Below the pieces are notes generated by a model, which ran no database searches, had not been told where the DNA came from, and saw only the letters and a program-made list of their open reading frames with translations. This document shows positions 3,186 through 19,108 of a stretch of DNA of 32,028 nucleotides, one piece after another. Within the stretch, counting starts at the first letter, position 1, and each line of letters opens with the position of its first letter. Source of the stretch: a virus. A program made the position numbers and the translations under genes. The stretch covers positions 1 to 32,028 of the IMG/VR virus record IMGVR_UViG_3300020193_000085; one strand, written 5' to 3'.

Positions 3186-5423
3186 TCAGAATCCGAATCT
3201 CACCTTGCAGCGACAGTTCATGGTCAGATTTATCGGCGCCGTCGGGTCGCCCGGATACATTATGTCTTGCCCGTTGACGACGAACGGTTCGTGCATCGCC
3301 ACGGTGTTCCCGTGCAGAAAGGAATGCTCGGGTCTCACTTTTGCGTCCTTCTCCGAAACCCAGGTTTTCGTCGCCGCCCCGACCGAGCGACCTGCGTAGA
3401 AGGAGCCCGCGTTGAAGGCGGCGTGGGATTCGTGTTCGGCGATCGTCCTCTTCCGCTTGGACAGCAGGTTGACGAATATGGCCAGCAGCGCCGCCTTGAG
3501 CATCCCCATTTTGTCCTCTTCTTCGCCTAGCGAGAGGGAGATCAGCACGGCCCCCTCTATCTCCTTGGCGGTCGTCGCGTTGATCTGCTGGAACCTCTCG
3601 ACCTGCTCCTTGAGGTGCTCGGCGGCCTCCTTCTCGTCTATCTCGGCCTGCATGCCGACCTCCTGGGAGACGATCGTGGCGGCATCGCTCATTATTCCGC
3701 TCAGGATCGGACGCATGTCCTCGGCGAGTTGCTTGTCCCAGATCCGCTGGTCGAATATGTTCTCGTAATCGAGGCTCCCGGAATCGAGGGCCTTCCTCGA
3801 CTTGGAACCCACGGCCTTCTCCATGATCACTCGTTGCTGGCGCTCGGCGAAGCGCTCCAGGGCCGTGTCGAGTATCTCCGTCCATCTGTCGAGGGAGCTC
3901 TCGGCTTTTTCGTCCCACTCGTCCCACAGGGATTTCGTGGTGATCTGGTCGCCGAACGCCGACGCCCGCGCCATCTGGCCGGCCTGGGCCGCGGCGACGT
4001 CCTCCGCCTGGAGTGCGGCGGTCATGCCCTCCTTCGGGGCGGGAGCCACCCCCTCGATCGCCGGCATCCCGGGGATCGCCGGCATCCCGGGGATCGGCGG
4101 GACGGGGCCCATCCCGGGTATCATCGGTCCGCCCGGGGTGCCGGCCGGCGGGACCGCCCCGCCCATGCCGGGGACGCCCATCTGCTGCTGCACGAACTTC
4201 TTGTTCGTGTAGCCGATCGGGGTCAGGTTCGGGTTGGCGAGCATGGCGTTCATCAGCTCGGAGTCGACCACCTTGCGCCCTGCGCCCTCCCTGTACTCGT
4301 TGCCGCTGATGAGACCCGTCTGGTACTCGCTCATCAGGTACCTGTCCCTCTCCTGCTTGTAGAGAACGAGGACCGGCACGTCGGTCACGTCGAAGTCGAT
4401 GTAGTACAGGTCGTCCAGTTCGTCCAGCGCCCTCGCGATCGTCTCGAGGTGGGGGAGCATCGTCTCGTTCCAGAACACCTTGTGCTCCTCAGCGGCGTTG
4501 GCGAACGTCCTGCCGGCGGCGTTCCCGATCACGGACTCGGGCACCCCGAAGGCGGCGAGGATTTCCTCCTTCTGTATCTGGCGCATCTGGACGTAGTTCG
4601 CGTCCCTCGGGCTCTGGCCCGTGTCCACGAAATCCACTCCCTCGTCCGAGGAGAGGACGGTCACGGCCCCGGCCCTGTTCACGTTCCCCCTGAAGCGACT
4701 GCGCAGCTCGTCCTTGTCGTCGTCGTCGATCTCGCCCCTCACGACCAGGAGGCCGCCCGGCCTGCCGTCGTTCAGAAGGAAGTTCCGGTTGTAGAGCTTG
4801 GAGAGATTCTCTATCTCGATGGCGATCCCCGCCGATTCCATCGGGGTGAGCGAGAGGTACGGGTCCAGCGGGTGCGGCTTCCTTATCCACACGACGTCGT
4901 CGGGCTTGAGGGTGACCTTCGTTCCGTTGCGCATGTCCACCTCGAAACCCGAGACGAACTTCTTGGGGTCGGGGATCGGCGCCGTGTGCTGCGGTGGGAG
5001 CAGCTGGAGGGCGATCAGCTCCCCGTCTCGTCCCCTGATTTTCTCTATGAATGCGCCCCGCGACGACATCAGCAATTGCGACGAGAGCCTGTACCTGAAC
5101 ACGAAGGAGTTCTCGCCCATGTTCGCCTTCGTGTTGAACAGATCGAGGATCTTCCTGTCGGTCTTGTGGACCACCCTGCCCGAGGGGCTGTTGCCCTCCC
5201 TGAGGATCACCGGGAGGCGAGACTGGTTTCCCGCTATCGCGTCGATGCACCGGTTCACCCAGGTGACCTTCTGGAACCCCTCGCGGTAGGCGCGCTCTAT
5301 GTCCCACGAGTCGCGGTACGGTTTCCCGACCTGGGACGGGTTGTAGGCGACCGGGGCGCCCGGGTTCAGCGCCTTAAACTTGTCGGCGTTGGAGCTCTTG
5401 TTGAATCGGGAATTCCAGGCCAT
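3186..5423 (-). CDS. Portal protein fused to a MuF-like head protein
   Basis: A 745-residue protein. Residues about 35-410 match HK97-family phage portals: an N-terminal block with WVNRCIDAIAG, then HPLDPYLSLTPMESAG, LLNDGRPGGLLV, and the motif region QIQKEEILAAFGVPESVIG. Residues about 415-465 form a Pro/Gly/Met linker with repeated IPGMPA. Residues about 490-745 are MuF/SPP1 gp7-like, ending in TWVSEKDAKVRPEHSFLHG, YPGDP and the hallmark NCRC at 736-739. The portal ring is the DNA-entry vertex, and MuF proteins are minor head proteins often encoded next to it. Here the two are one chain. The ATG is preceded by AAGGAG on the minus strand, overlapping the end of the upstream membrane-protein gene. 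The gene is transcribed away from the terminase, which is unusual. Confidence 0.93.
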   Translation of the reverse strand: MAWNSRFNKSSNADKFKALNPGAPVAYNPSQVGKPYRDSWDIERAYREGFQKVTWVNRCIDAIAGNQSRLPVILREGNSPSGRVVHKTDRKILDLFNTKANMGENSFVFRYRLSSQLLMSSRGAFIEKIRGRDGELIALQLLPPQHTAPIPDPKKFVSGFEVDMRNGTKVTLKPDDVVWIRKPHPLDPYLSLTPMESAGIAIEIENLSKLYNRNFLLNDGRPGGLLVVRGEIDDDDKDELRSRFRGNVNRAGAVTVLSSDEGVDFVDTGQSPRDANYVQMRQIQKEEILAAFGVPESVIGNAAGRTFANAAEEHKVFWNETMLPHLETIARALDELDDLYYIDFDVTDVPVLVLYKQERDRYLMSEYQTGLISGNEYREGAGRKVVDSELMNAMLANPNLTPIGYTNKKFVQQQMGVPGMGGAVPPAGTPGGPMIPGMGPVPPIPGMPAIPGMPAIEGVAPAPKEGMTAALQAEDVAAAQAGQMARASAFGDQITTKSLWDEWDEKAESSLDRWTEILDTALERFAERQQRVIMEKAVGSKSRKALDSGSLDYENIFDQRIWDKQLAEDMRPILSGIMSDAATIVSQEVGMQAEIDEKEAAEHLKEQVERFQQINATTAKEIEGAVLISLSLGEEEDKMGMLKAALLAIFVNLLSKRKRTIAEHESHAAFNAGSFYAGRSVGAATKTWVSEKDAKVRPEHSFLHGNTVAMHEPFVVNGQDIMYPGDPTAPINLTMNCRCKVRFGF
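4056..4091. repeat. Tandem 18-bp duplication in the portal linker
   Basis: The plus strand carries GATCGCCGGCATCCCGGG twice in a row, at 4056-4073 and 4074-4091. On the minus strand it encodes the repeated PGMPAI in the flexible linker between the portal core and the MuF-like domain. The 18-bp period resembles the one in the next gene's proline-rich linker, though the sequences differ. Confidence 0.8.
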
Positions 5424-9976: not shown

Positions 9977-10537
9977 GTGGAAAAAACGAAGATTTTCATG
10001 GGTTTGGATTTGTCCCTATCGTCCACGGGCTGGTCGGTGCAGGACGCGAGGGGGGCGATAACCCCAAAAAGCAAAGGGACCCAGAGGCTCATCGACGTGT
10101 CGGCGCAAGTGATGGAGCTCGTTGGATTTCACCGCGTAGAGGCGGTGGTGATGGAGGGCTACGCTTTCGCGGCGCGGTCCGGGCAGGCCTTCTCGATCGG
10201 GGAACTCGGCGGCGTCGTCAGGTACGTGCTGTGCGGCGCCGGGATTCCCTTCGCCGAGATAGCGCCGACGGCCAGGGCGAAATTCGCCACGGGCAGGGGC
10301 AACTCGTCCAAGAGCGAGGTCGTGTCGGCCGTGTCGGCGAGAACGGGGATAATTTGGTCGGGGCCCGGGGCGGACGATATCTGCGACGCCTGGATACTGG
10401 AAGAAATGGCATTGATTAGATGGGGCAAGCCGAGATACGATTGGCCCGAGGCAAGTCGCGCCGTCGCCGACGGAGTCGACTGGTCCCCTATAGAAAAATA
10501 TAAAGGAAAATGCAGTGACTCGCAGTACGCCGATTAG
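9977..10537 (+). CDS. RuvC-like Holliday junction resolvase
   Basis: A 186-residue protein of the RNase H-like RuvC family. The catalytic acids are visible: D11 in FMGLDLSLSSTGWSV, E60 in AVVMEGYAF, and the C-terminal pair in GPGADDICDAWIL (D133/D134, D137). Such enzymes cut branched DNA before packaging. The ORF begins with GTG at 9977; ATG at 9998 (MGLDLS) is an alternative start but would leave almost nothing before the first strand. The start codon lies in a predicted hairpin arm. The gene is the first of a run of overlapping genes: its last 23 bases are shared with the next gene. It fits with the annealing protein and nuclease upstream as the resolution step of recombination. Confidence 0.9.
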   Translation: MEKTKIFMGLDLSLSSTGWSVQDARGAITPKSKGTQRLIDVSAQVMELVGFHRVEAVVMEGYAFAARSGQAFSIGELGGVVRYVLCGAGIPFAEIAPTARAKFATGRGNSSKSEVVSAVSARTGIIWSGPGADDICDAWILEEMALIRWGKPRYDWPEASRAVADGVDWSPIEKYKGKCSDSQYAD

Positions 10538-10853
10538 CCAAGTCGAGGTTGAGGAAGAATTGTTGCGCCTCATGGATTTGCTCGAGAACGAGACCGAGGC
10601 CTTCGAGACCCTCTCCACCGACGCCGCCAAAAAAGAGGCCAAATACAAAGCCAATTGGGCCAAGTCGTATCTGGCCGCCAAGGGCTCCATAAAGGAGCGC
10701 GAGGCGTGGGCCGACTACCAGATGAACGACGAAAACTACGACTACAAAATTTCCGAAGCCCTCGTCAAGGCCAAGAGGGAGAAGCTCCTACTGCTGAGAA
10801 CATCAATTGACGCCCTGAGGACGCTGAACGCCAACGTTAGGGCCCAGGTGTGA
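10515..10853 (+). CDS. Small coiled-coil protein, unknown function
   Basis: A 112-residue, highly charged protein predicted almost wholly helical (EVEEELLRLMDLLENETEAF, ISEALVKAKREKLLLLRTSI), probably a coiled coil or helical bundle. GTG at 10515 is chosen because AAAGGAAAA sits just upstream and no better start exists. It overlaps the resolvase by 23 bases, and its stop overlaps the next start as GTGA. No catalytic motif is visible. It lies between the resolvase and the ParB-like gene, so a DNA-binding or adaptor role is conceivable, but nothing in the sequence proves it. Confidence 0.78.
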   Translation: MTRSTPISQVEVEEELLRLMDLLENETEAFETLSTDAAKKEAKYKANWAKSYLAAKGSIKEREAWADYQMNDENYDYKISEALVKAKREKLLLLRTSIDALRTLNANVRAQV

Positions 10854-11635
10854 GCGACGTCGCCAACATCCACCCTTCGATACTGAGCCTGGCCATCGAC
10901 ATAGACCTCCTGAAACCGATGGAGAAGAATCCGCGCATCGGGAACGTCGAGTCAATAATCGCCTCGTACAGCGAGTTCGGACAGATAAAACCCATCGTGG
11001 TTATGCCGTCCGACGACGGAAAGTTCTCCGTCATAGCGGGCAACCATCAACTGATCGCCGCGAAAAAACTCGGGTGGGAGAAGATCGCCGCGATCGTGTA
11101 CGAAGTCGACGAGAACCGCGGCCACGCCTTCGCGCTGGCCGACAACAGAACCACCGAGTTAGGGAACACCGACCAGGGGATGGTGCTCGATCTGATGTCC
11201 GAAATCTCGTCCGAGTACCAGGACCTGCTGCTGGGACTCGGCTGGGACGAGTTCGAGGTGGCATCGCTGACCACCGACATACTGGTCAACGAGAGAAACG
11301 ACAACAGGGGCGGCTACACGCCGGCGGTCATCATCAACCCGTTCGAGCCGCTCGGCGAGGATCAGATAGTCGAGAACAGGAACGAAAACGACGAGATTGA
11401 CTACCTCGCCACGGACAAGATTGACAAAGAGGAGGCGATCACGAGGGGGAGCGTGGCGGTGGGGGTCAAGGGCGGCGAGAGGGCGATAGTCCAGTACACC
11501 CTCGTGTTCGACGACGCCGACCAGCAGAAACGATGGTACGACTTCATCAGGTACATCCGGAACGACCCTGCCTACGCCGGCGAGACAACCGCGTCAAAGC
11601 TGATCAACTTCATAAACACGAACGCCGACTTCTGA
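10850..11635 (+). CDS. ParB-like nuclease-domain protein (first of two)
   Basis: A 261-residue protein. Residues about 15-105 are a ParB/sulfiredoxin-like domain: IDIDLLKPMEKNPRIGN, IIASYSEFGQIKPIVV, then the nucleotide-binding loop VIAGNHQLIAAKKLGW in place of the usual G-HR, and FALADNRTTELG. The rest is not recognised. ParB-family domains bind or hydrolyse nucleotides; stand-alone ParB-like proteins occur beside PP-loop enzymes in phages and in the E. coli ibrAB pair. Its GTG overlaps the previous stop (GTGA) and its stop overlaps the next ATG (TGATG). The usual Arg of the GxHR motif appears to be replaced by Gln, so activity may differ from canonical ParB. No parS-like sites or ParA are nearby, so DNA segregation is unlikely. 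Confidence 0.85.
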   Translation: MSDVANIHPSILSLAIDIDLLKPMEKNPRIGNVESIIASYSEFGQIKPIVVMPSDDGKFSVIAGNHQLIAAKKLGWEKIAAIVYEVDENRGHAFALADNRTTELGNTDQGMVLDLMSEISSEYQDLLLGLGWDEFEVASLTTDILVNERNDNRGGYTPAVIINPFEPLGEDQIVENRNENDEIDYLATDKIDKEEAITRGSVAVGVKGGERAIVQYTLVFDDADQQKRWYDFIRYIRNDPAYAGETTASKLINFINTNADF

Positions 11636-12765
11636 TGCCGCGCAAGCGACTTTACCTCGACACCACCTGCGTCGACGCCGCGAGGAAGAGGATCAGGCAC
11701 GTCTACGACACGTTCGACACGGTCTGCGTCCAGTTCTCCGGCGGCAAAGACTCGACAGCGGTCCTGTATCTCGCCAAAGAGTTGCACGAAGAGCGCGGGC
11801 TCGGCCCGGTGAGGGCAATCTTCAGGGACGAGGAGATGGTCAGCCCGATGGTCATAAATTTCGTGGAGAAAGTGCGGAACTACGACTGGGTCGACATGGA
11901 GTGGTACTGCCTGTCGGTCGGCGTGGAGGTCTGGTCAATGGGCAAGAGAACCACCGAGATGACCTGGTCGAAGGAACGCGAAAGGCAGGGTCGCCTCGTC
12001 AGGCCCATGCCGGAGTTCGCCATCAACGCCGAGTCCTTCGGCATGAGCAGGGAGGAGGACATGGGCGACACGGACTACTACACGATGCAGGGCAAAAAGG
12101 GCAGGACGGCGTTCCTGACGGGCGTGCGGGCGAACGAGTCGATGATCAGGTACAGATCCTGCGTCCAGAAACTGCACGAAAACTACATCGTCGCCCCATA
12201 CAAGGCGCCCAGAAATCTCCCCCTCCGTTTCGCGAAGATAATATACGACTGGACGACCGACGACGCGCTGAAGTTCGTCACGGAGGAACATGGAGCAGAG
12301 TACTGCGAGTACTACGACGTTGCGGCGATGACGGGGTCGAACACGAGAGTCGGCATACCTCTCTATTGCGTTGCCGCGAGGAGGATGGGCGACCTGATGG
12401 CCACCGAGCCGGCTTTCTTCGACCAGCTCCAGAGAGTCTGGCCGATGATTGACGCGCAACGGAGGTTGTGGGCCGACTACGACATCGAGAAGCTGATCAT
12501 GGGGTACGCGCGCTACGGATGGGACGGGGTCAGGGCGTGCATCGACGACCACATGATGAGCGACTCGGACATATTCTACGCAAAGGCGTTCTGCGCGAAG
12601 TTCAGGATGAAGATGCGCAACGATCCGAAGAGCTACCCGATCCATTGGCTGATACGCACGCTGCTGCTCAACGAGTTCACCGCGGCGTCACCCATGCCAA
12701 TGGGGCCCGGGACGAAGGCGTACGGAATCGCAAAGAGAGAAAACGCGGAGGCAAGCGATGAGTGA
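11635..12765 (+). CDS. PAPS reductase/DndC/IbrA-like PP-loop protein
   Basis: A 376-residue protein of the adenine-nucleotide alpha-hydrolase superfamily. The PP-loop SGGKDST (35-41) follows a hydrophobic strand (VCVQF). TGVRANES (162-169) with downstream Arg, and IYDWTTDDALKF (about 203-214), match the PAPS reductase family layout. Cysteines at 12, 31, 92, 176, 224 and 245 could bind a metal or carry sulfur, but no CxxC is seen. I place the start at 11635, where ATG overlaps the upstream stop as TGATG; a longer frame to 11533 lies inside the ParB-like gene. Family members reduce PAPS, or activate a target with ATP for sulfur transfer (DndC, tRNA thiolases). It is flanked by two ParB-like genes, as with IbrA/IbrB. 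The substrate is unknown. Confidence 0.88.
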   Translation: MPRKRLYLDTTCVDAARKRIRHVYDTFDTVCVQFSGGKDSTAVLYLAKELHEERGLGPVRAIFRDEEMVSPMVINFVEKVRNYDWVDMEWYCLSVGVEVWSMGKRTTEMTWSKERERQGRLVRPMPEFAINAESFGMSREEDMGDTDYYTMQGKKGRTAFLTGVRANESMIRYRSCVQKLHENYIVAPYKAPRNLPLRFAKIIYDWTTDDALKFVTEEHGAEYCEYYDVAAMTGSNTRVGIPLYCVAARRMGDLMATEPAFFDQLQRVWPMIDAQRRLWADYDIEKLIMGYARYGWDGVRACIDDHMMSDSDIFYAKAFCAKFRMKMRNDPKSYPIHWLIRTLLLNEFTAASPMPMGPGTKAYGIAKRENAEASDE

Positions 12766-13318
12766 TGGCAGGCACGAAAAGGTCGAGGCCGACGCGCTCA
12801 GGAGCGCACCCTGGCGAGCTACCTACATCGTCAAACCCGACCTCAGTCTCCTCGCGACGTCGCTGGTCGCGTACGGCTGGGTGTCCCCGATCGTCGCCTA
12901 CGACAGGCAGGACGGCGACGGGCTCACCGTCGTGGACGGCCACGAAAGGTTGGCCTTGACCAAGGCCATGCCGCAGCTACTTATCGACCAACGGTTCGTC
13001 CCAGCGGTCGTGTTCCCCGACATGTCCGACACGGAGGCGATGATCATGCACGTGACGCTCAACAGGGCGAAAGGTCAGGTCATGAACGAGAGACTCTCAA
13101 AGATAATAAGGACGATAATCAAATCGGGCGCCCACGACCCGGAATCGTTGATGCGCACCCTCAGCATGACCGCAGAGGAGTTCCAGGTGCTCCTCGACGG
13201 ATCGCTGCTGAAAATGAGAAAGGTCTCGGAGCACGTGTATTCCAAGGCCTGGGTTCCAATAGAAGCCAACCAGGACGAAAGACCGCAGTTCGAGAGACCC
13301 CCGAACCCCGACAGGTGA
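12758..13318 (+). CDS. ParB-like protein (second of two)
   Basis: A 186-residue protein with a divergent ParB-like domain: residues about 24-110 include LLATSLVAYGWVSPIVAY, the loop VVDGHERLALTKAM (an almost canonical DGxxR/GHxR motif), and MHVTLNRAKGQ. The C-terminal part is helical (LSKIIRTIIKSGAHDPESLM, LSMTAEEFQVLLDGSLLKM), possibly DNA-binding. The ATG is preceded by GGAGG and overlaps the previous gene by 8 bases. Its nucleotide loop is closer to the classical form than that of the first ParB-like protein, which suggests the two are not interchangeable and could form a heteromer with the PP-loop protein. It ends the overlapping gene run that began with the resolvase. Confidence 0.8.
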   Translation: MSDGRHEKVEADALRSAPWRATYIVKPDLSLLATSLVAYGWVSPIVAYDRQDGDGLTVVDGHERLALTKAMPQLLIDQRFVPAVVFPDMSDTEAMIMHVTLNRAKGQVMNERLSKIIRTIIKSGAHDPESLMRTLSMTAEEFQVLLDGSLLKMRKVSEHVYSKAWVPIEANQDERPQFERPPNPDR

Positions 13319-18434: not shown

Positions 18435-18926
18435 ATGGAAGAAAACACCGTGAAAACACAACCCACCACACCCGAACCGACCCTCCTCGACCAGCTCAAG
18501 GCCGTGATCGCCAAGAAGGTCGAGAGACCGAACGTCTTCATCGAGGTCCCCGAGAGGCCCGGAGTGAAGCTGCTCGTCAGCCCGAACCTCACCCAGGCGC
18601 AGATCCGCGGCTGGCAGAAGCAGTGCGGAAGCGAGACACAAAGGGGCCTCGACTCCACGAGGTTCGCCTGCACCGTCGTGGGCCACGCCACGAAGGGCGT
18701 GTACCTGCAGGGGGACGAGGTGCTGCAGGACGGCCAGTGGCCGGTCAACTTCGCCTCGAAGCCGATCCTCGAAATGACGCACTGCGACAAGGCGATCCCC
18801 GACGCCGTCCAGAAATTCTTCGGCATCGACGCCCACGTTGAGGCCGCGGCGCTGGCGATCATCGACGCCTGCGGATTCGGCGACACCATCCAGGCCGAGG
18901 CAACGGAAAACCCTACGAAGAACTAA
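18435..18926 (+). CDS. Tail assembly chaperone (short, gpG-type form)
   Basis: A 163-residue protein just ahead of the tape measure gene, the standard place for the tail assembly chaperone. It has a core with KLLVSPNLTQAQIRGWQKQC and a C-terminal helical part (ILEMTHCDKAIPDAVQKFFG). Such chaperones bind the tape measure so that the tube polymerises along it and are absent from the finished virion. The zero frame stops at TAA 18924-18926; just before it a GGAAAAC sequence permits a shift to the -1 frame, which is open to 19108. The ratio of the two products is usually fixed by the shift. Confidence 0.85.
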   Translation: MEENTVKTQPTTPEPTLLDQLKAVIAKKVERPNVFIEVPERPGVKLLVSPNLTQAQIRGWQKQCGSETQRGLDSTRFACTVVGHATKGVYLQGDEVLQDGQWPVNFASKPILEMTHCDKAIPDAVQKFFGIDAHVEAAALAIIDACGFGDTIQAEATENPTKN

Positions 18927-19108
18927 TCGAGGAGTTGTCGCAAGACAACCGCGTAATAGCCGCCGCTCGATTAGGCGAGCTATGGGGAACCGATCCGGTC
19001 AGGCTGCTCGACTCGGGCCTCGATGAATGGGTCGTCAGATACGCCTGTGCTAAAGTTATATCGGCGGACCGCGAGAGGGAACGACGCGAATCGGAGAACT
19101 CTGGCTAG
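18435..19108 (+). CDS. Tail assembly chaperone, -1 frameshift product (gpGT-type form)
   Basis: If the ribosome slips back one base at GGAAAAC (18905-18911), translation continues in the -1 frame with GKPYEELIEELSQDNRVIA, then LGELWGTDPVRLLDSGLDEW, and stops at TAG 19106-19108, giving about 224 residues. The extension has no start codon or ribosome site of its own, fills the gap up to the tape measure, and looks like protein (helical, charged, with a conserved-type LDEW motif). This matches the G/GT arrangement of many tailed phages, where the longer form links the chaperone to the tape measure and tube. The extension is firm; the exact shift site is inferred. Confidence 0.85.
18905..18949 (+). 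promoter_or_regulatory. Programmed -1 frameshift site with downstream stem-loop
   Basis: The zero frame reads ACG GAA AAC; slipping back gives GGA AAA C. The A-site re-pairs well (AAC to AAA), while the P-site tRNA for GAA must pair with GGA, which is weaker than the textbook GGGAAAC. A perfect stem GTTGTC/GACAAC with a GCAA tetraloop lies at 18934-18949, 22 bases downstream. That is farther than the usual 5-9 bases but may still help. Confidence 0.75.

Follow-up and report, generated by a model that had tools for sequence, protein, structure and literature searches.

A PAPS-reductase-like enzyme retained with two ParB-like proteins in phages: a possible DNA-modification module of the IbrA/IbrB type

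Introduction

IbrA/IbrB-type gene pairs occur in hundreds of phage contigs and in many bacterial genomes, where their products carry the names PAPS (3'-phosphoadenosine 5'-phosphosulfate) reductase, partition protein or co-activator; those names describe no tested biochemical activity. Two precedents involve ParB-like proteins or genes: DpdB is a ParB-like ATPase that works with DpdA (PMC12839542), and ParBc genes occur alongside CmoY, an asparagine-synthetase relative and ATP-dependent amide ligase that modifies 5-carboxymethylcytosine (5cxmC) in phage DNA and is proposed to adenylate this base (PMC12783734). Here we analyze a three-gene cassette in IMG/VR virus record IMGVR_UViG_3300020193_000085, a 32,028-base stretch, hereafter the window at its full length, which may be a fragment. 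It derives from a contractile-tailed phage and carries genes for the portal, the terminase, the tail sheath and the tail tube. The cassette encodes a PAPS-reductase-like PP-loop enzyme between two ParB-like proteins, here termed ParB-A (upstream) and ParB-B (downstream). The three genes are retained together across phages, and we tentatively propose that they serve the modification of phage DNA.

Architecture of the cassette

The cassette and the small gene in front of it comprise the following features of the window.

10515-10853, plus strand: small helical protein of 112 residues, GTG start, with a phrog_1389 profile match
10850-11635, plus strand: ParB-A, 261 residues, GTG start, with PF02195 and phrog_723 matches
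11039-11053, plus strand: GNHQL motif of ParB-A (residues 64-68), seen in the sequence
11635-12765, plus strand: putative PP-loop ATP pyrophosphatase, PAPS-reductase-like and IbrA-like, 376 residues, with PF01507 and phrog_2302 matches
11737-11757, plus strand: SGGKDST PP-loop of the enzyme (residues 35-41), seen in the sequence
12758-13318, plus strand: ParB-B, an IbrB-like ParB NTPase domain followed by a helical region, 186 residues, with a phrog_2159 match
12935-12949, plus strand: DGHER motif of ParB-B (residues 60-64), the nucleoside triphosphate (NTP)-binding motif, seen in the sequence

An earlier sequence-only reading had recognized this trio of ParB-like, PP-loop and ParB-like genes, and its positions proved correct, as did the overlaps of 4 bases between the small gene and ParB-A, 1 base between ParB-A and the enzyme gene, and 8 bases between the enzyme gene and ParB-B.

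Spread and retention of the three genes

Relatives of the enzyme were found in 130 phage records, all below 60% identity, and in at least 598 virus contig stretches; they include phages of Mycobacterium, Arthrobacter, Bacillus and Rhizobium as well as several hundred virus contigs. The complete trio is present in Arthrobacter phage Salgado (gp5-6-7) and Mycobacterium phage Phlyer (gp1, gp4 and gp5), and also in Bacillus phage 022DV001, Mycobacterium prophage prophi79-1 and Rhizobium phage RHph_I4. In Phlyer, gp4 and gp5 already bear the annotations IbrA and IbrB, the nearest named pair, to which the sequence-only reading had also pointed. The arrangement is not due to chance, since the order recurs across unrelated phages. 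In 101 viral loci the contig extends for 1.5 kb or more to either side of the enzyme gene, and a ParB gene follows the enzyme directly in 66 (48 of them overlapping, median -4 bases); the same holds for 56 of 70 cellular loci, where an upstream ParB is rare (2/70).

In other genomes the genes are dispersed. In one contig group the enzyme lacks neighboring ParBs of these families. Two long contigs of this group, G181 (105.7 kb) and G186 (137.8 kb), nevertheless carry strong ParB-A and ParB-B genes elsewhere, so that three single-copy genes lie approximately 20-50 kb apart (in G181, ParB-B at 22.2 kb, ParB-A at 72.6 kb and the enzyme at 92.0 kb); in G166, ParB-A is approximately 85 kb away. The ParB-B gene of G181 occupies the syntenic site between a phrog_1389-like gene and a head-tail gene. 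Across 18 enzyme-bearing contigs of 65-174 kb, ParB-B was detected in all 18 and ParB-A in 17, and both were present in each of five trio-bearing isolates. These loci are related and do not count as independent. Because the genes are retained on the same contigs even when tens of kilobases separate them, the three proteins very probably act together. The cassette is conserved as a unit and persists where its genes are split, and so it passes the first refutation test set by the sequence-only reading.

A lineage control pointed the same way: when the neck protein served as the seed, 37 of 52 loci contained the enzyme and ParB-B, and in the other 15 no more than about 1.4 kb of contig precedes the neck gene, which leaves too little sequence for the cassette to be seen. 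This distribution bears on a role in anti-defense or host takeover, in which an ATP pyrophosphatase and a ParB NTPase would consume or alter nucleotides. ParB-superfamily effectors that act on nucleotides have been proposed (PMC10853773); however, the cassette occurs in every testable member of one phage lineage and, in several phages, near packaging genes, which would be unusual for an accessory anti-defense gene, and we regard this explanation as improbable.

Some actinophage-type contigs (L035, L046, L018 and L039, with small WhiB-like proteins identified by eye) encode the enzyme without an adjacent ParB-A or ParB-B. Several of them encode a nearby 345-residue NGQHRL protein (phrog_5931), possibly a divergent DndB/ParB relative.

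The enzyme: a complete ATP-site motif and no invariant cysteine

The enzyme matches PF01507 (4.6e-7, above the curated cut-off) and phrog_2302 (5.9e-70). DUF3440 (PF11922) gave no match in the window enzyme and matched 6 of 17 aligned members; judged by its sequence, the protein is IbrA-like and not a DUF3440 member. Two alignments were built, one of 17 diverse members (A1) and one of 67 members (A2), with 23 and 22 invariant columns, respectively, and no cysteine among them. SGGKDS is invariant in both, and the 67-member set also fixes R19, F27, D65, E67, W111, R123, R165, E168, S169, R172, Y204, D205, W206, D210, Y227 and R238. C92 is nearly invariant in this set but not in the more diverse one. 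When the family was aligned with four DndC proteins, CysD and two sulfonucleotide reductases, the PP-loop and a G.R..ES..R motif were common to all; the DndC cysteine cluster and the C-terminal ECGLH catalytic cysteine motif of CysH were missing from the family. Residues D65.E67, W111 and R123 distinguish it from its CysH, CysD and FAD synthase relatives.

A search of the PDB with the enzyme sequence alone returned no match, and matches came from a profile search. The AlphaFold2 (AF2) model (predicted local distance difference test, pLDDT, 89.4) is most similar to the PAPS domain of FAD synthase (VIA Z 16.6, 3.3 Å, 172 residues), followed by FMN adenylyltransferases and sulfonucleotide reductases (CysH/APS reductases) at Z 13-15. 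TilS, TtuA, LarE and GMP synthetase score lower, at Z of about 10-12, and NcsA is also among the fold matches. DndC and SspD are not among the structural matches listed, which carries no weight, the inclusion of either in the structure library being unchecked. Most proteins of this fold perform ATP pyrophosphatase or adenylyl transfer chemistry, and the window enzyme is probably an ATP pyrophosphatase or adenylyltransferase as well.

The sulfur chemistry implied by the name of the enzyme is not supported. Auxiliary sulfur metabolism, in which an assimilatory PAPS reductase would supply sulfite, was rejected: name, Pfam family and fold agree with it, but the catalytic ECGLH cysteine of CysH is missing and we know of no role for ParB partners in sulfate assimilation, which leaves this explanation with a vanishingly small probability.

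Sulfur transfer to DNA or RNA, either as a reduced Dnd/Ssp phosphorothioation system or as thio-base formation, was among the proposals of the sequence-only reading; in both forms it would draw on a host cysteine desulfurase. Its DndC link holds to the extent that DndC is the nearest defense-library relative of the enzyme: the PADLOC models nearest to it are DndC, BrxP and SspD, and all 67 members of A2 match DndC weakly. Sulfur handling in relatives of the enzyme is generally cysteine-dependent. The DndC match covers only residues 13-80, the N-terminal PP-loop, and neither the DndC cysteine cluster nor any invariant family cysteine accompanies it. DndD, DndE and SspB/SspC had no PADLOC match among the 14 window proteins scanned, other contigs not having been searched for them. 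As the window may be a fragment, the desulfurase search was extended to other records: a cysteine desulfurase (DndA/IscS, PF00266) was found in 0 of 24 cassette records and in 14 of 14 control genomes. A host desulfurase could substitute for a phage one, and the desulfurase gene (iscS) can be remote from the modification genes in known systems (review PMC12707154). Taken together, sulfur transfer appears quite unlikely, and a "reduced Dnd system" is probably the wrong frame for this cassette.

Two different ParB-like partners

ParB-B comprises a ParB NTPase domain (approximately residues 5-105), a helical region (approximately 108-156) and a conserved C-terminal tail. The protein alone has no PF02195 match and matches phrog_2159 at 1.1e-24; PF02195 is matched by 25 of the 36 sequences of its alignment. 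Its motif is nearly invariant, with G61 and R64 in 190/190 aligned sequences and D60 in 189/190. The AF2 model (pLDDT 86.3) aligns with ParB N-domains at VIA Z 13-14 (7bnr: Z 13.8, 93 residues), and the predicted ParB/Srx fold with its P-motif arginine places ParB-B with the ParB-superfamily NTPases. Weak alignments with helix-turn-helix fragments were obtained for residues 108-156 (Z approximately 4-5, alone not significant). Over its final 30 residues the protein is conserved in sequence but modeled with low confidence; our guess is that they form a binding tail.

ParB-A has a ParB-N domain at approximately residues 16-147, followed by a conserved C-terminal region (alignment A4). It matches PF02195 (2.1e-10), phrog_723 (4.7e-36), the DNA methyltransferase family phrog_498 (1.3e-20) and PADLOC MTase_II (6.9e-12), and its ParB-N domain resembles the ParB part of the ParB-methyltransferase models (phrog_498, MTase_II). 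GNHQ replaces the NTP-binding G..R motif, and the position of the P-motif arginine is a glutamine in the window protein; of 96 relatives, 66 have Q and 13 have R there. Since this arginine is usually a glutamine, and other ParB-fold proteins lose NTP binding when it is changed to alanine (PMC12704722), ParB-A is more likely to be a targeting subunit than an NTPase.

A plain role in chromosome or plasmid partition was rejected: a scan of ten proteins in and near the cassette recognized no ParA, and the partners of the ParBs include an enzyme.

The strongest rival to a modification role is a transcriptional switch, in which the ParBs would act as DNA-binding NTP switches, the enzyme would sense a nucleotide and late phage genes would be activated. 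IbrA/IbrB have reportedly been proposed to act in this way on eib genes, and both the homology and the public annotation of the phage proteins as IbrA/IbrB co-activators agree with it. In addition, the ParB-B model and the KorB repressor align across 153 residues (8qa9, VIA Z 13.1), and the cassette adjoins late genes in the window. On the other hand, conservation is highest in the enzyme (median identity 67%, against 44-49% for the other two proteins), and its full set of catalytic motifs would exceed the needs of a sensor. We consider a switch unlikely.

Neighboring genes point to DNA

A SNF2-family helicase gene is often located just upstream of the IbrA- or IbrB-like gene, both in cellular loci and in phages of Streptococcus and Flavobacterium. 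The helicase BLAST cluster has a member in 18 of 80 cellular loci, 16 of them directly upstream of the enzyme gene, and Pfam confirmed SNF2 on two phage proteins and one actinophage-type relative. Several bacterial genomes and Streptococcus phages share an arrangement in which a SNF2-type helicase gene is followed by the IbrA-like enzyme and then the IbrB-like ParB (L087 and L091, and the genome loci L096, L102-L106, L108, L110, L114, L118, L124, L125, L155 and L162), with the variant order helicase, IbrB, IbrA in Flavobacterium phage 23T. The helicase trio may represent a fuller version of the system.

These partners also bear on modification of tRNA or mRNA, the activity of the PP-loop enzymes TilS, TtuA and NcsA. 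All three are among the fold matches of the enzyme, yet they score well below FAD synthase and CysH; no RNA-binding domain was recognized, and the ParB proteins and cellular SNF2-type helicase point to DNA instead. An RNA target thus seems improbable.

Modification-type genes accompany several cassettes. A phrog_11826 methyltransferase is located in or beside those of Salgado, 022DV001 and prophi79-1, with an acetyltransferase in its place in Kovu. In Microbacterium phage Hendrix (L089 2613-6161 and L394 1-4307), the enzyme gene shares one end of the record with genes for a glucosyltransferase, a putative methyltransferase and a GNAT protein, and three ParB genes and the terminase gene lie at the other; provided that the record is circularly permuted, these genes would be adjacent, and the set looks like a DNA hypermodification cluster. 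The cassette lies close to the terminase in Phlyer, Salgado, Kovu, prophi79-1 and PJN03, and in Bacillus phage 022DV001 the proximity to packaging genes spans the record ends.

Further genes were noted near individual cassettes. In L075 (6204-6671), a deoxycytidylate-deaminase-like gene, identified by eye, separates the phrog_1389 gene from ParB-A; in L194 (2472-2933) such a gene is located near the cassette. In Fusobacterium phage phiFN37 (L093 9736-10780), a second ParB adjoins a gene annotated as queuine tRNA-ribosyltransferase, approximately 3 kb downstream of IbrA/IbrB, where DpdA-type 7-deazaguanine DNA modification is possible. RHph_I4 EVC24_114 (L086 5241-5939) is annotated as a putative DNA methyltransferase; Pfam gives a ParB N-domain only, and the annotation is likely to be wrong.

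Proposed function

We most likely see here a cassette that acts on nucleic acid, as the sequence-only reading had proposed, and our tentative choice, held with slightly less than even confidence, is an IbrA/IbrB-type phage module that produces modified phage DNA. FAD synthase, CysD, TilS and asparagine-synthetase-type enzymes all adenylate substrate groups. The cassette enzyme would similarly use ATP to adenylate a carbonyl or carboxyl group of its substrate rather than move sulfur. ParB-B (IbrB) would bind NTP via DG..R, bind DNA, and gate or position the enzyme; ParB-A, with a ParB domain like those fused to phage DNA methyltransferases, would target the complex to DNA. Phage DNA would thereby acquire a modified base, probably at a late stage close to packaging, and this base would serve to evade host restriction.

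Several observations weigh against this proposal. IbrA/IbrB of E. coli are said to be prophage gene activators, not a modification system, and the literature searched reports no modified base for any cassette-bearing phage. Co-occurrence with known modification enzymes is weak: PF00145 was detected in 6 of 18 long contigs and in none of 7 isolates, PF01555 in 2 of the 18, and the methyltransferase and acetyltransferase neighbors were identified mostly via PHROG names. A constant tie to a common DNA methyltransferase was accordingly rejected; as most long contigs have no PF00145 or PF01555 match, the module seems not to need these methyltransferases. No enzyme gene was detected on ten contigs of 14-47 kb that carry ParB-B; they are probably fragments, are not decisive and were excluded as evidence. 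Finally, the three genes co-diverge with r of 0.76-0.82, compared with 0.75-0.80 against the neck protein, so that co-divergence is uninformative as proof of coevolution.

A bolder version of the DNA-modification proposal, which we consider doubtful, is that the cassette represents an undescribed, widespread phage machine, in which a PAPS-reductase-like adenylating enzyme that lacks conserved cysteines works with two ParBs, one that binds NTP and one whose NTP site is altered, and installs a non-sulfur base modification just before packaging.

The IbrA/IbrB pair is already known and annotated, and the second ParB is also widespread. The present analysis adds that the three parts are retained when unlinked and that conserved sulfur-handling residues are absent. 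If DNA modification is the true role, this would account for a common class of phage modification, and a set of sulfur-metabolism annotations would prove mistaken; if the undescribed machine exists, many phage genes now labeled "PAPS reductase" or listed under "sulfur auxiliary metabolic gene" would be DNA-modification genes.

Genomic surroundings in the window

Around the cassette, the gene order is terminase, an unassigned gene, Rad52-like, PD-(D/E)XK nuclease, an unassigned gene, HNH and RuvC; it continues with the phrog_1389 gene, ParB-A, the PP-loop enzyme, ParB-B, a small gene, and head-tail and neck genes. A megablast of the window against phages gave no match. The phrog_1389 family has no functional annotation, and 61 of 146 viral loci have a gene of this type close to the cassette. 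The small protein is probably a syntenic neighbor outside the functional unit, because on G181 it stays with RuvC and ParB-B, with ParB-A and the enzyme gene elsewhere.

The portal gene (3186-5423) lies on the minus strand; the terminase and other recognized genes lie on the plus strand. The tail assembly chaperone gene (18435-19108) contains a candidate -1 programmed frameshift at GGA AAA C (approximately 18905), from which the shifted frame is open until a TAG near 19108, beyond the stop of the ORF at 18435-18926. Such -1 frameshifts are likewise found in other phage tail chaperones.

Comparison with known systems

CysH, CysD and the PAPS domain of FAD synthase share the fold (VIA Z 13-17) and a related nucleotide-binding loop with the cassette enzyme, which differs in the missing ECGLH cysteine, in its own family residues and in an unrelated gene context. 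The CmoX-CmoA-CmoY system of cytosine hypermodification also employs an ATP-dependent adenylating ligase on phage DNA, with ParBc genes nearby (PMC12783734); however, CmoY is an asparagine-synthetase homologue rather than a PAPS-reductase family member, and PF00145 was not found on most cassette contigs. DndC/DndB likewise place a PP-loop enzyme beside a ParB-superfamily protein, with the PP-loop and G.R..ES..R motifs in common, whereas the cassette enzyme lacks the DndC cysteine cluster and no DndA-like gene occurs in the 24 cassette records.

IbrA/IbrB remain closest. The literature searched mentions phage IbrA/IbrB, and a mechanism was not found there. The window differs in the second ParB (ParB-A) in front and in an enzyme without a DUF3440 match, whereas cellular loci rarely have an upstream ParB and often have a SNF2-type helicase. 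What the two have in common is the enzyme superfamily with its invariant residues, and a ParB-B gene directly downstream that overlaps the enzyme gene.

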